IMG/VR virus record: IMGVR_UViG_3300047334_000107
Coordinates: 1-40,117 of that record
DNA length: 40,117 nt
Origin: a virus
Strand: one strand, 5' to 3'
Every line of letters starts with the position of its first letter. The first letter of the stretch is position 1. Shown in pieces: positions 20,388 through 40,117 of this stretch. The notes under the pieces were generated by a model, which was given only the letters and a program-made list of their open reading frames with translations, did no database searches and was not told the origin of the DNA. Made by a program: the position numbers and the translations under genes.

Positions 20388-20640
20388 TATGAAATACCAA
20401 GCAAATCCTGTGATTGTGGATGCATATAAAATTGTAAGTGTGAGCGATAGCCTTAATGAAGATGTTACCACAGACGAAAGGTCTAGTTTTAACGTGGCTA
20501 CCGATGATGGAGAGAACCGCCATGCAAATTTCGATATGTGCGCCCGCTATATCCCGCAAGTCGGAGACTATTGGGTTGTTCAATCCGATGGATATGAATA
20601 TCTGAATCCCAAAGATGTTTTTGAACGCAAATATTCACCT
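20388..20640. repeat. Inverted duplicate, copy 1 (253 bp)
   Basis: The sequence from the base before the ATG through codon 84 of the gene at 20389 is the exact reverse complement of 24383-24635; I found no mismatch line by line. Copies lie 3.7 kb apart in opposite orientation. Confidence 0.95.
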
Positions 20641-24362: not shown

Positions 24363-24634
24363 TACTTGGCCTGCTGCAATGCAGGTGAATATTTGCGTTC
24401 AAAAACATCTTTGGGATTCAGATATTCATATCCATCGGATTGAACAACCCAATAGTCTCCGACTTGCGGGATATAGCGGGCGCACATATCGAAATTTGCA
24501 TGGCGGTTCTCTCCATCATCGGTAGCCACGTTAAAACTAGACCTTTCGTCTGTGGTAACATCTTCATTAAGGCTATCGCTCACACTTACAATTTTATATG
24601 CATCCACAATCACAGGATTTGCTTGGTATTTCAT
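24362..24634 (-). CDS. Duplicated small protein, copy 2, 90 aa
   Basis: First 84 residues are identical to the product at 20389; the end differs (ALQQAK). AAGGAG lies eight bases before the ATG. Copy sits in an unrelated operon and orientation, and DNA identity is complete over the shared stretch, so duplication or gene conversion is recent. Confidence 0.8.
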   Translation of the reverse strand: MKYQANPVIVDAYKIVSVSDSLNEDVTTDERSSFNVATDDGENRHANFDMCARYIPQVGDYWVVQSDGYEYLNPKDVFERKYSPALQQAK

Positions 24635-24635
24635 A
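24383..24635. repeat. Inverted duplicate, copy 2 (253 bp)
   Basis: Exact reverse complement of 20388-20640. The flanks on both sides differ, which marks the copy boundaries at the base before the start codon and at codon 84. Confidence 0.95.
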
Positions 24636-27588: not shown

Positions 27589-27695
27589 CACAACCCCAAC
27601 ATCAAACACCCGAAGATACACAGCCCCAACCATGACAGGATGCACTCCATCCGATTGGATTCGATTAGCTCAATGGCTCGCTCTAGAGTTTTCAT
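27588..27695 (-). CDS. Small membrane peptide, 35 aa
   Basis: ATG 27695 in an ATGA overlap with the Ala-repeat gene and TGATG with the next. MKTLERAIELIESNRMECIL then SWLGLCIFGCLMLGL: polar helix followed by a membrane helix. Not listed by usual ORF length limits. Confidence 0.55.
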   Translation of the reverse strand: MKTLERAIELIESNRMECILSWLGLCIFGCLMLGL

Positions 27696-28504
27696 GCTGC
27701 CTCAGTCAGATCAAGCCATTCACAACCATTGGCATTCATAGATATGAGAATCTGCACAACTTCTTCAGCAAACCACGCTAGGCGCTCATCACGGATTTTA
27801 GCCGCACACGCCGCATACGCCGCCGCATTCGCCGCATTCGCCGCCGCATTCGCCGCCGCATTCGCCGCATACGCCGCCGCCTTCGCCGCCTTCGCCGCAC
27901 ACGCCGCACACGCCGCATTCGCCGCATCCGCCGCATTCGCCGCCGCATTCGCCGCATACGCCGCATTCGCCGCATTCGCCGCCGCATTCGCCGCCGCATT
28001 CGCCGCACACGCCGCATACGCCGTATGCGCCGCATTCGCCGCATCCGCCGCATTCGCCGCCTTTTTATCTCCATTCAATTCACACTGGACGGCAGCTTTT
28101 TCCAAAACTTCTTTATGAGCGGCATCAGGATGAATAGATGCGGCAGAGCGTAAAGCCGCAGGCACAACCTTGCGGATCACCAAATCATTAACGCGTTTTA
28201 TAAATTCCAGATCGTCAATATTTCCTGCCGTGCCAAGTTGCGCTATAGCGAGGCGGCGCATTCCCTTTGCGCGGGATTCTTTTGACGACCAATCGGAATC
28301 ATTGAGGCGAATCTTAAGCGCTCGCACTGCCCCACTTACACAAGGCGGATTATCCCCATGTGGCAAGCCCATGGCAAAGCACACCGCTGCTTCGATGCAC
28401 ATCTCGCCGGGTTTCTGATTGCCCAACCCTGAACTTAGCCCCTTGTCAACGATTTCTAGCACTTTTGCGGCAAGCTTGCGGTCAATTTCAACTTCTTTTT
28501 TCAT
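27692..28504 (-). CDS. Ala-rich tandem-repeat protein, 270 aa
   Basis: ATG 28504 overlaps the previous stop (TGATG) with GGGGA upstream. Residues 1-150 form a globular part (AAVCFAMGLPHGDNPPCVSG, then AVRALKIRLNDSDWSSKESR). Residues about 150-235 are Ala-only with one different residue every three to five positions (ADAANAAHTAYAACAANAAA), and the end (LAWFAEEVVQILISMNANGC) is ordinary. The repeat would make a long Ala helix or a solenoid. Phage proteins with AAYAAAYAA-type repeats and an N-terminal GLPHGDN.SCV segment are known as families of unknown function; some are compared to immunity or antitoxin-like proteins. Confidence 0.8.
   Translation of the reverse strand: MKKEVEIDRKLAAKVLEIVDKGLSSGLGNQKPGEMCIEAAVCFAMGLPHGDNPPCVSGAVRALKIRLNDSDWSSKESRAKGMRRLAIAQLGTAGNIDDLEFIKRVNDLVIRKVVPAALRSAASIHPDAAHKEVLEKAAVQCELNGDKKAANAADAANAAHTAYAACAANAAANAAANAANAAYAANAAANAADAANAACAACAAKAAKAAAYAANAAANAAANAANAAAYAACAAKIRDERLAWFAEEVVQILISMNANGCEWLDLTEAA
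27800..28062. repeat. Imperfect tandem repeat of GCCGCATTC units
   Basis: About 260 bp of 9-base units of the type GCCGCATTC with variants (ACAC, ATAC, TTC, ATCC) and extra GCC triplets. On the minus strand it encodes the Ala repeat. Because most codons are GCN in several frames, it also leaves open antisense frames that are shadows. Unit number may vary by slippage. Confidence 0.95.
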
Positions 28505-28632
28505 CACAAATCCCCATTGCGTTTAAATATTTCGATAATCTCATCCAGCTTGCGTGAATCTTCCTTGGCATCTAAAAGCATTTGGTCAAGAATGGCCTGA
28601 AGTTTGGCTATTTCTGCCTTGAGTTCTTCCAT
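28504..28632 (-). CDS. Small coiled-coil protein, 42 aa
   Basis: ATG 28632 comes one base after the upstream stop, with GGAAG eight bases before. MEELKAEIAKLQAILDQMLL and AKEDSRKLDEIIEIFKRNGD give one amphipathic heptad helix. Longer frame to 28719 overlaps the upstream gene. Confidence 0.6.
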   Translation of the reverse strand: MEELKAEIAKLQAILDQMLLDAKEDSRKLDEIIEIFKRNGDL

Positions 28633-30407: not shown

Positions 30408-32576
30408 TTGGATGCCAGCTATAACGGTTTTATCAAGGCGAAAAATTCCCGTTGCAAATGGGATGGGATCGGAAACGTAACATTATCAGACTGCCTTTTC
30501 GATTATCAAAAAGCAATAACTTCATGGGCTTTACGCAAAGGCAGGGCGGCAATATTTGCCGATTGCGGATTAGGTAAAACGCTCATGCAATTGGAGTGGG
30601 CGCGGCAAGTAAATGCAAGCACTGGAAAGCCTGCGCTTATTATTGCGCCATTATCCGTATGTGATCAGACAAAGGAAGAGGCGGATAAATTTGGTATTCC
30701 GCTGGAATGCTTTAATATCGCCAATTATGAAAAGCTTCATACGATAAATGCCGCTGATTACTCCGGTGTGGTGCTGGATGAATCCAGCATTATAAAGTCC
30801 TTTACAGGAAAAATCCGTAATCAACTGATCAATATGTTTAAAGACACTCCCTATCGTTTGGCCTGTACTGCTACTCCTAGCCCAAATGATTATATGGAAT
30901 TAGGCAACCATGCGGAGTTTTTGGGCATCACATCCTATACGGAAATGCTCGCCACGTATTTTATACATGATGGCGGTGAAACATCTAAATGGCGCTTAAA
31001 AGGCCACGGCCAGCGCAAATTCTGGGAATGGCTTTGCACATGGGCGGTATTTATTCGCAAGCCTTCGGACATTGGCTTTGAAGGCGAGGACTTTGAACTT
31101 CCGCCTTTGATCCAGCATAATCACTGCATACCCGATCATGACGTTAAAAGCGACACATTGATTCCTATGGCAGTTGCCGGGCTATCGGAGCGCATCGGCT
31201 TGAGGCGTGATACGATAGAAATCAGAATGCAGAAGGTGGCAGAACTCGCCAGCACAATGGAAGGTCAAGTTTTGATATGGTGTGACCTCAATGACGAAGC
31301 GGCCATGCTTTCCAAAATGATACCAGATGCTGTTAATGTGCAAGGCAGTGACGCGCCGGAATACAAATCCAAAACGGCGTTAGAATTTGCTCATGGTAAA
31401 ATAAAAACACTTATAAGCAAGGCCGATATTTTGGGTTACGGCATGAATTTCCAATCATCGCATAATATGATTTTTGCCAGTATGAATGATTCTTATGAAT
31501 CGCTTTATCAATGCATCCGGAGGCAATGGCGTTACGGACAAACGCAACCTGTAAACGTGCATTTTGTTTATACGGAACGCCAGCAAACTATTATTGAAAA
31601 TCTCGCTCGTAAACATGAACGAATGGAGACAATGGCTATGCAGATGATTGAAACTACAAATAAATTGATTTGTGCAGAATTGAGCGGTGGCAAGACCGAC
31701 ACAGCACCCATTGAGGAAAAGGAAATTAAAGGCGATGGATTCCATATAACGCTTGGCGATTGCGTTTCGGGAGTAGCTTCATTACTGGATAATTCTATTG
31801 ATTTTACTATTTATAGTCCCCCATTTGCCAGTTTGTACACATATTCCAATAGTCCGAATGATATGGGAAATTGCACAAGCGACGAAGATTTTACAAAGCA
31901 TTTTTCCTATCTCGCAAAAGACCTTTTCCGTGTGACGCGCCCCGGACGGCTTATGTCATTTCATTGCATGAACTTGCCTAGTACAATACAGCGAGATGGG
32001 TTTATCGGCATCAAGGACTTTCGCGGCGATCTGATACGTTTGTTTCAGGATATTGGGTTTATATTTCATAGCGAAGTAGTGATATGGAAAGACCCGGTAA
32101 CGGCGATGCAGCGCACTAAAGCATTAGGGTTGCTACACAAGCAGATTAAGAAAGATTCATGCATGAGCAGGCAGGGCATTCCCGACTATCTTGTAACGAT
32201 GCGTAAACCCGGCGTGAATACCAAGCCAAACACGCACACCAATGAAACGTTTCCGGTGGATTTGTGGCAGAATTACGCAAGTCCCGTTTGGATGGATATT
32301 AACCCATCCGATACGCTACAATTCCGCGAAGCGCGGGAATCTGATGATGAACGTCATATTTGCCCATTACAGCTACAAGTCATTGAACGTGCTATAAAAC
32401 TTTGGAGCGCAGAAGGCGATACCGTGCTATCGCCATTCATGGGCATCGGATCGGAAGGATATATGGCGCTTAAAATGAATCGGAAGTTTCGTGGATTTGA
32501 GCTGAAAAAGTCCTACTTTGAATTGGCTGCAAGGAATCTTGAGACGGCAAACAGTCAACTTTCATTAGCAGTATGA
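30408..32576 (+). CDS. SNF2-family helicase fused to N4/N6-type DNA methyltransferase, 722 aa
   Basis: Start is TTG 30408, fixed by an AAGGAG site seven bases upstream. Residues 30-440 form a helicase superfamily 2 motor: Q motif DYQKAI (32-37), Walker A ADCGLGKT (51-58), DESS box (124-127), motif III ACTATPSPND (152-161), and near 345-385 motifs V/VI (ILGYGMNFQSSHNMIF; YQCIRRQWRYGQTQPV with arginine fingers). Residues about 440-722 are a beta-class amino-methyltransferase: SPPF catalytic motif IV at 470-473, target region between, and the SAM motif I with SPFMGIGSEG at 675-684 and FELKKSYFELAARNL. Order IV then I is typical of beta-type DNA methyltransferases. It would scan DNA by ATP hydrolysis and methylate cytosine N4 or adenine N6. 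No nuclease domain is seen, so self-protection or host-modification rather than restriction is likely. Confidence 0.85.
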   Translation: MDASYNGFIKAKNSRCKWDGIGNVTLSDCLFDYQKAITSWALRKGRAAIFADCGLGKTLMQLEWARQVNASTGKPALIIAPLSVCDQTKEEADKFGIPLECFNIANYEKLHTINAADYSGVVLDESSIIKSFTGKIRNQLINMFKDTPYRLACTATPSPNDYMELGNHAEFLGITSYTEMLATYFIHDGGETSKWRLKGHGQRKFWEWLCTWAVFIRKPSDIGFEGEDFELPPLIQHNHCIPDHDVKSDTLIPMAVAGLSERIGLRRDTIEIRMQKVAELASTMEGQVLIWCDLNDEAAMLSKMIPDAVNVQGSDAPEYKSKTALEFAHGKIKTLISKADILGYGMNFQSSHNMIFASMNDSYESLYQCIRRQWRYGQTQPVNVHFVYTERQQTIIENLARKHERMETMAMQMIETTNKLICAELSGGKTDTAPIEEKEIKGDGFHITLGDCVSGVASLLDNSIDFTIYSPPFASLYTYSNSPNDMGNCTSDEDFTKHFSYLAKDLFRVTRPGRLMSFHCMNLPSTIQRDGFIGIKDFRGDLIRLFQDIGFIFHSEVVIWKDPVTAMQRTKALGLLHKQIKKDSCMSRQGIPDYLVTMRKPGVNTKPNTHTNETFPVDLWQNYASPVWMDINPSDTLQFREARESDDERHICPLQLQVIERAIKLWSAEGDTVLSPFMGIGSEGYMALKMNRKFRGFELKKSYFELAARNLETANSQLSLAV

Positions 32577-37256: not shown

Positions 37257-37563
37257 TTACACAGCAAAGCGGGATCGTGAATTTCTCGCGTGGATAAGGA
37301 CACTCCCCTCATGCCTATCGGGTGAAAGCCCATGCGTAGCAGCTCACGTAAGGCGTGTGAGCGAAGGTGCCGGCATGGGTATAAAGCCTAGGCTATTCTC
37401 GGTGCCAATGACAGACATTGAGCACAGATACCTGCATCAACATGGTGAGTATGCGGCTTATTTCTATTTTTATCCATTGCCCGGTCATTACGACCTTCAG
37501 GGAGTGAAAGACTGGTTTTCCGAGCAGGCGCTTAAGTATCGGGAAATGTTTTTGGCACGATAA
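37243..37563 (+). CDS. HNH-like nuclease-type protein, 106 aa
   Basis: GTG 37243 with AAGG nine bases upstream; overlaps DUF1064 gene by 14 bases. YTAKRDREFLAWIRTLPSCL, then CVAAHVRRVSEGAGMGIKPR, FSVPMTDIEHRYLHQHGEYA. The AH.R....G.GMG.KP....P.....H..LHQ.GE pattern is that of the DUF968/Ref/YbcO-like HNH nucleases in phages; the zinc-binding CxxC pair is missing. Probably a recombination or nicking endonuclease. Convergent with the TA-like genes by a 32-base overlap. Confidence 0.7.
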   Translation: MAKSNYTAKRDREFLAWIRTLPSCLSGESPCVAAHVRRVSEGAGMGIKPRLFSVPMTDIEHRYLHQHGEYAAYFYFYPLPGHYDLQGVKDWFSEQALKYREMFLAR

Positions 37564-37915
37564 GCCTGTCAAGGGCGCGTTTCAGATACTCCGGCGGCTT
37601 GTGGATGCCTCTTTCCCAATCCTCGACGTTCCTGCGGGATATCTGCAACAAATCGGCAAGCTTTACCTGTGATAGCTTATGCTTTTTACGGAAGGATCGC
37701 AGATGCTCCGGCCAGTCCTTTACCGGAATGCTGGCGCTGGCGATGGTATAGAAGCCCGCAATTGCCTCACCCTGCACGGCGACGAAGCAGCTTGTCACCC
37801 GCCTCTTTATATCCTGTGTTACCTGTTCGCGGAAATAACGATCAAGCGCCGGTTCGCCGCAAGCGAAGGCGCGGCGGTCGTGCCGCTTTTCCAAAGCTTC
37901 CAGTTTGAATGTCAC
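37532..37915 (-). CDS. Chimera: N-terminal TacT-type GNAT toxin fragment fused to XRE-like HTH, 127 aa
   Basis: ATG 37915 in an ATGA overlap with the antitoxin gene. Residues 1-63 are the first half of a TacT-like toxin: KLEALEKRHDRRAFACGEPA, LDRYFREQV, RRVTSCFVAVQGEAIAGFYT. Family members (about 160 aa) continue with the acetyl-CoA loop QxxGxG/A, which is absent. From about 69 the product is an HTH: EHLRSFRKKHKLSQVKLADL, LQISRRNVEDWERGIHKPPE, YLKRALDRL. The frame is uninterrupted with no stop remnant. Without the acetyl-CoA site, acetyltransferase activity is unlikely; it might act as an antitoxin-binding DNA-binding regulator. GC content changes near the join, as expected for a recombination fusion. 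Confidence 0.8.
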   Translation of the reverse strand: MTFKLEALEKRHDRRAFACGEPALDRYFREQVTQDIKRRVTSCFVAVQGEAIAGFYTIASASIPVKDWPEHLRSFRKKHKLSQVKLADLLQISRRNVEDWERGIHKPPEYLKRALDRLIVPKTFPDT

Positions 37916-38196
37916 GAATTATCGACGCGCTGGCGATAACGTTCAGCCGCCCGTACAAGCGCCGGTGATGGCGGCGGAGGGCTGAGCAGCAGATCGGCCA
38001 CGCGGCGCTGATCTTCCGCTGACAGCCGTAGTATATCGGTTTCCTCTATCGTCTTACGCGCCGCTTCACTGGCTGCCGTTACGACGAAATCAGTTATCGA
38101 ACGTCCCTGTATAGCGGCGGCGCGCTTTAGTATCGCGTAGGCATCGGCAGGCATACGCGCCTCTAAACGGGCAGTGTCGGAATGTTGCATGGTCAT
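37912..38196 (-). CDS. DUF1778 (TacA-type) antitoxin, 94 aa
   Basis: ATG 38196 or 38190; the frame upstream to 38238 runs through the promoter and is rejected. DTARLEARMPADAYAILKRA, AAIQGRSITDFVVTAASEAA, RKTIEETDILRLS form the RHH DNA-binding domain of DUF1778 antitoxins. The end (SPPPPSPALVRAAERYRQRV) is the Pro-rich toxin-binding tail. DNA is more GC-rich than in neighbours, suggesting acquisition. It normally represses its own promoter together with the GNAT toxin; here the partner is a chimera. Confidence 0.88.
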   Translation of the reverse strand: MTMQHSDTARLEARMPADAYAILKRAAAIQGRSITDFVVTAASEAARKTIEETDILRLSAEDQRRVADLLLSPPPPSPALVRAAERYRQRVDNS

Positions 38197-38202
38197 AAGA
38201 TA

Positions 38203-38231
38203 AATATACGGCAATTTGCCGTAATAATCAA
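38203..38231 (-). promoter_or_regulatory. Autoregulated promoter with 17-bp palindromic operator, near-leaderless
   Basis: On the minus strand TTGATT (38231-38226), 17 bases, TATATT (38208-38203), then six bases to ATG 38196. The palindrome TACGGCAATTTGCCGTA (38207-38223) fills the spacer and touches the -10, which is typical of an RHH antitoxin operator. The message would start at or just before the start codon. Confidence 0.75.
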
Positions 38232-39520: not shown

Positions 39521-40117
39521 ATGGAGGCACTTAATGAAATGCATAATAGCAACCCATTTTTGCATGGGGAATATGTGACCCACCAATGGTTTCGCATGTA
39601 CGCTGAATTTTTATCTGATCCAAAAGTACAGATGATGAGCGAAGCACTGCAGCGCCGCCTTATCATGTTGTTTTGCGCAAGATGTAACGGGGATGAAACG
39701 TTACAAGATGAAGAAGTAACATTTTTATTGCGTATAGATGCGCAAGAATGGCTCGCCACTAAAGCCGAATTTATCAAAAGAGGATTTATAGATAGCCACA
39801 ATAAACTTATCAATTGGGATAAGCGCCAATATCGCTCTGATTCAAGCTCAGAGAGGGTTAGAAAGCATCGAGAAGCAAAGAAACACATAGATGTAACGAC
39901 ATGTAACGTTTCAGTAACGCCACAGAACAGAACAGAACAGAACAGAACAGATACAGAAGGAGTTATTAAAGAAATAACTCCTAAGCGCGTGCGCACGAAA
40001 AATGCAAAACCTGAAATATCCTTGGCCGATCTAACCGCCGACGCCATTGCAGACTGGTTGGCAAAAAAGCGCGGTGAAGGCCGTTACCTTCAGCATGACG
40101 AGCATTTCATTTTGGAG
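39521..40117 (+). CDS. Replication initiator-like protein, N-terminal part (continues at left end)
   Basis: ATG 39521 follows GGGAG. Residues 1-100: MEALNEMHNSNPFLHGEYVT, then HQWFRMYAEFLSDPKVQMMS, LQRRLIMLFCARCNGDETLQ, VTFLLRIDAQEWLATKAEFI, GFIDSHNKLINWDKRQYRSD is a winged-helix domain like that of lambda O/DnaD-type phage initiators. It continues as SSERVRKHREAKKH (basic linker) and the Asn/Gln/Thr-rich origin-encoded part, and without break at base 1-396 (264 aa total). It should bind the iterons inside its own gene and recruit the loader. Confidence 0.8.
   Translation, partial: MEALNEMHNSNPFLHGEYVTHQWFRMYAEFLSDPKVQMMSEALQRRLIMLFCARCNGDETLQDEEVTFLLRIDAQEWLATKAEFIKRGFIDSHNKLINWDKRQYRSDSSSERVRKHREAKKHIDVTTCNVSVTPQNRTEQNRTDTEGVIKEITPKRVRTKNAKPEISLADLTADAIADWLAKKRGEGRYLQHDEHFILE
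39684..39985. other. Candidate replication origin inside the initiator gene
   Basis: Five GTAACG half-sites (39684, 39699 inverted, 39893, 39903, 39914), an ACAGA pentamer run (about 39922-39950), an AT-rich stretch and the 10-bp inverted repeat (39958-39967/39973-39982). Lambda's origin lies inside gene O with iterons, AT-rich part and an inverted repeat in the same kind of order. Function inferred from the arrangement. Confidence 0.6.
39920..40117. repeat. Right copy of 198-bp terminal direct repeat
   Basis: Matches 1-198 except T at 39990 versus G at 71. See the left copy. Confidence 0.95.

Follow-up and report, generated by a model that had tools for sequence, protein, structure and literature searches.

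A phage gene joining the N-terminal half of a TacT/AtaT-type GNAT toxin to an XRE-type HTH, next to an intact TacA-type antitoxin: probably a regulator or a decaying remnant

Introduction

The closest described systems to the locus analyzed here are the GNAT-RHH modules TacAT, AtaRT and KacAT. In AtaRT and KacAT, the antitoxin has only weak affinity for the operator when alone, and repression is tuned by the toxin (reviewed in PMC10135005). Single substitutions of the catalytic tyrosine abolish the toxicity of TacT2 and TacT3 (PMC5959882). A passage of PMC9431474, citing Grabe et al., describes toxin helix alpha4 as an auxiliary antitoxin interface that confers specificity.

The phage locus resembles TacAT, AtaRT and KacAT in the order of its genes with the DUF1778 RHH antitoxin first, in the 4-nt overlap, in the family operator and in the toxin lobe from beta1 to beta3. 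However, an HTH stands in place of the toxin from beta4 on, including the acetyl-CoA loop and the catalytic tyrosine. A possible partner-binding N-terminal part followed by a C-terminal XRE HTH is also found in antitoxins of the MqsA/HigA2 type. The HTH half scored against the HTHs of the MqsA family and HigA-2, but these matches were generic and below the family cut-offs (26.3 bits against a cut-off of 61.8 for the MqsA family). In contrast to those antitoxins, the N-terminal part here is a piece of a toxin, and an RHH antitoxin is encoded by its own gene alongside. The GNAT-Xre modules such as PacTA (PMC9561280) likewise combine GNAT and XRE components at one locus. PacTA consists of two proteins, a whole GNAT toxin and an Xre antitoxin, whereas here half a GNAT and the HTH form one chain and the antitoxin is of the RHH type. 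The fusion is a real, so far unique, reshuffled toxin-antitoxin pair and is probably either a gene regulator or a decaying remnant.

Results

Genome context

The window, the whole stretch of DNA that was analyzed, is a viral record of 40,117 bp. Its ends share a direct terminal overlap of 198 bp (1-198 and 39920-40117) with one mismatch. Although classed as linear, the record probably represents an almost complete genome that is circular or terminally redundant. The portal and coat were of the P22 type, and the terminase shared about 45% identity with terminases from several proteobacterial phages. No integrase-like ORF was noticed among the ORFs searched. The AlpA-like and replication genes are divergent from the tacA/fusion operon, across an AT-rich gap.

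Several other features were observed in the window. A perfect 253-bp inverted repeat (20388-20640 and 24383-24635) flanks about 3.7 kb, and each copy contains most of the same small ORF. The arrangement may reflect either an invertible segment or an error of assembly. A 722-aa ORF (30408-32576) unites a SNF2/helicase part with an N6/N4 DNA methylase part, and the middle of a 271-aa ORF (27692-28507) is a long Ala/Asn-rich near-repeat (AANAANAAYAANAA...).

An assembly chimera, in which a tacAT contig was joined to a phage HTH gene, would leave a singleton, as the fusion is, and the inverted repeat elsewhere in the contig is a feature able to mislead assemblers. However, phage genes flank the locus on both sides, the frame is undamaged at the join, and the overlap of the contig ends fits a nearly complete genome. 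We regard a chimera as very improbable.

The toxin half

The fusion gene (37532..37915, minus strand) starts with GTG and encodes 127 aa of TacT/AtaT-type GNAT N-terminal half plus XRE HTH, in a single open frame of 127 codons without a stop from 37915 to 37532. Its first 4 nt (GTGA) overlap the end of tacA with its stop codon, and the same overlap was present in most of the intact plasmid tacAT operons examined. Residues 1-69 (37709..37915, minus strand) form the GNAT N-terminal lobe (beta1-alpha1-beta2-beta3), as identified by profile, conserved positions and fold match. Residues 2-74 aligned to columns 3-76 of a TacT-type profile (i-E 3.5e-28); a second profile, covering the N-half of the toxin, matched as well (1.2e-37). 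The TacT-type match stops at column 76, short of the acetyl-CoA loop and catalytic tyrosine of a complete GNAT toxin. A profile search detected no remnant of the toxin C-terminal half in any frame across the whole window.

The structural elements were mapped on a full-length viral relative, L014, which was modelled at pLDDT 92 and gave TM-scores of about 0.9 against AtaT, TacT3 and KacT. Its elements are beta1 (7-10), alpha1 (25-40), beta2 (45-50), beta3 (55-68), a short helix (74-77), beta4 (85-96), the helix after the acetyl-CoA loop (105-119), beta5, alpha4 (134-142; a label assigned in this analysis) and beta6. The break in the fusion comes after beta3, and beta4, the acetyl-CoA loop and the region of the catalytic tyrosine are gone. 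The short helix after beta3 has either given way to the first HTH helix or merged with it ('WPEHLRSFRKK').

The AF2 model of the fusion was weak overall (pLDDT 57). Its confident part was the toxin lobe, while the HTH half, for which there were no aligned relatives, was poorly modelled. The model was set aside as support for the whole protein and supports the toxin lobe only. Its fold match to TacT/AtaT/KacT spans about 65 residues, and the best 36 PDB matches were all GNAT toxins of this group.

As the catalytic tyrosine and the acetyl-CoA-binding elements are absent, the fusion should be non-toxic. Judged from its sequence, it cannot be an acetyltransferase, and the truncation predicts that it lacks the growth arrest by aminoacyl-tRNA acetylation that TacA neutralises. 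The initial annotation had described a dead toxin ending before the acetyl-CoA loop, and the loss of everything from beta4 on, including the active-site half, agrees with both statements.

The toxin half retained 16 of the 18 positions at which at least 85% of relatives agree. The other two carry Y-to-F and L-to-I substitutions that also occur in intact toxins. The mean identity of the toxin half to full toxins was 0.53, within the range of 0.45-0.59 found among the full toxins themselves. The toxin half thus appears free of visible decay, and these values imply that it is either recent or maintained.

The HTH half and the join

The XRE-type HTH occupies residues 70-117 (37565..37708, minus strand), with E-values of 2e-7 for HTH_3 and 2e-6 for HTH_31. 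HTH_3 matched residues 72-114 over positions 1-44 of 55 of the profile, with 31.4 bits against a Pfam cut-off of 23. The fusion therefore carries the complete HTH_3 domain of an XRE-type DNA-binding protein. No ATG, GTG or TTG occurs in frame between residues 48 and 88, so an HTH protein translated from a standard start must include toxin sequence.

The toxin half extends to about residue 69-73, which puts the join at about 37697-37709. The range of 37690-37740 suggested before contains the join, in its lower part. A 'DxPEHLR' stretch at the join fits both parents (compare 'DLPEHLRKK' in relative L007), which accounts for its seamless look. A GNAT N-terminus in frame with a complete HTH beside a DUF1778 antitoxin, with no stop or frame remnant between the halves, had been read from the DNA before. 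All of this was recovered here, as a single open frame with profile matches to both halves.

A foreign toxin part (57-58% GC) joined to a native HTH (50% GC) was considered and dropped, as third-position GC gave no support. Some plasmid toxins seemed to align with 92% of the fusion at 40% identity, but this was an artefact of an alignment running by chance into the HTH.

The state of the gene bears on the view that it is a neutral remnant. This holds that illegitimate recombination destroyed the toxin of an acquired tacAT and left an HTH in frame by accident, so that only TacA, or nothing, still works and the fused protein has no role. A random join is in frame with a probability of about 1 in 3, and the intact frame is thus weak evidence of function. 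Inactivation is a usual fate of captured toxins. The good preservation of both halves and of TacA, with no stop or frameshift, speaks against a remnant, but a recent event would look alike. We consider neutral decay a serious, if tentative, explanation, nearly as likely as a regulator.

The TacA-type antitoxin and its operator

The antitoxin (DUF1778, RHH; 37912..38196, minus strand) is intact, with 94 aa, or 92 aa from the ATG at 38190, and matched TacA1 with an E-value of 3e-24. Among ten aligned relatives, nine were 44-60% identical to it and the Deinococcus one 32%. The protein is a full-length RHH DUF1778 antitoxin whose C-terminal tail aligned to those of the relatives. A start at GTG 38238 was rejected in favour of ATG 38196 or 38190; it would place the operator within the gene.

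The palindrome TACGGCAAATTGCCGTA lies at 38207..38223 and was also found, within about 110 nt upstream, for 29 of 37 related tacA genes, which lie on plasmids of Proteobacteria, Acidobacteria and Deinococcus and on viral contigs; many of these loci are near-identical viral contigs and the 29 are hence not independent, while the plasmid cases alone cover several phyla. A match allowed at most three mismatches at 14 specified positions. At the phage locus the sequence is exactly that of the family and represents a putative autoregulatory operator. No second good copy occurs within the window. The antitoxin had earlier been called intact with its operator kept, and both points held. A promoter-like site, TTGATT-17-TATATT (38203..38231, minus strand; a consensus match only), overlaps the operator. 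Only 6 nt separate the end of the predicted tacA -10 hexamer from the ATG (38196-38208), and this short distance suggests that the tacA mRNA may be leaderless or nearly so.

When IMG/VR was scanned with the operator pattern, 2 of 82 sites adjoined a tacA; most hits were chance palindromes, and the scan was uninformative on fusions. No operator for the HTH was identified. Inverted repeats occur in the AT-rich gap, but AT-rich sequence yields many of them.

The intact TacA with its neutralising tail also allows an anti-addiction or anti-defence role, in which TacA would neutralise a host TacT/AtaT and the fusion would stabilise TacA or titrate host TacA. The operator has the same sequence as in host and plasmid modules, which makes cross-talk on DNA plausible, and one non-cognate GNAT-RHH case, the neutralisation of KacT2 by KacA3, is published as a precedent (PMC9431474). 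However, mostly no cross-interaction was reported among GNAT-RHH modules (PMC9431474), and the fusion has lost alpha4, the contact to which a passage of that paper attributes specificity. In addition, a decoy that titrates TacA would release the host toxin. Such a pair is therefore unlikely.

Relatives of the fusion

Pattern-based and single-sequence scans of phages, plasmids, IMG/VR and GTDB contigs, which may have missed near relatives of the window, turned up no relative with both halves. The profile search of IMG/VR was restricted to two peptide patterns, and the genome search was one single-sequence GTDB scan. The 28 viral relatives recovered with a toxin N-lobe profile were all full-length GNATs, and none had an HTH. 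In 72,556 plasmids, the best-scoring matches examined were full-length toxins behind DUF1778 genes, and in 50,697 phages the sole match was a weak one to the HTH. The GTDB scan gave one weak match in Fibrella, to the toxin half alone. Single-sequence IMG/VR searches with the fusion, the HTH half, TacA, the AAA_24 protein and the replication protein returned no relatives. A terminase-profile search for sister phages gave 80 loci, the closest (L051) with 57% identity, and a homologue of the fusion locus was present in none of them.

The initial annotation had counted a fusion that occurs nowhere else and is not expressed as evidence against its reading, and the searches run returned no second copy, which is the first half of that pair. 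Uniqueness among all relatives retrieved is what a neutral remnant would give. The fusion had no homologue in these searches and so offers no evidence of long-term selection.

Discussion

The reading we favour, with a probability of roughly 45%, is that the tacAT cassette of a P22-like phage was recombined into a TacA-linked DNA-binding autoregulator. Recombination would have swapped the C-terminal half of the toxin, from beta4, for an XRE HTH. TacA would still repress its own promoter at TACGGCAAATTGCCGTA, and the fusion would be translated from the tacA mRNA by coupling. The toxin lobe may contribute to self-association or to contact with TacA. The HTH may bind DNA at the operator or close to it, or else in the AT-rich stretch between the operon and the divergent AlpA/replication genes. 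Together the two proteins would act as a non-toxic autoregulator, possibly also of the divergent early genes. The fusion may retain the affinity-modulating role of the toxin, with the HTH supplying a further contact to DNA. Because the toxin tunes repression in AtaRT and KacAT (PMC10135005), a dead toxin half tethered to DNA has a plausible use.

This autoregulator is favoured by the intact frame, by strong E-values for both halves and by an undecayed toxin half. The 4-nt overlap shared with intact operons and a full-length TacA with its tail argue in the same direction, as do the family operator across a promoter-like site and the divergent orientation to the AlpA/replication genes. The loss of alpha4 disfavours tight binding of TacA by the fusion. 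It is doubtful that the two proteins form a joint repressor in which the toxin N-lobe docks TacA and the RHH and HTH read a composite operator of the early genes.

The initial annotation had proposed either a dead toxin that binds its antitoxin and DNA or a decoy against host TacAT systems. Death by truncation, the HTH in frame, the intact TacA and the kept operator all stood, and a dead toxin that binds DNA is plausible from the sequence. The decoy was weakened by the loss of alpha4, the antitoxin-specificity contact, and is less likely.

If the fusion is functional, a toxin-antitoxin pair could be converted to a pure regulator by putting a DNA-binding domain in place of the toxin's catalytic half, and the fusion would be a natural protein that separates the co-repressor role of a toxin from its toxicity. 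If it is not functional, the locus would be a clear case of a captured module that lost its toxin and kept its antitoxin and operator.
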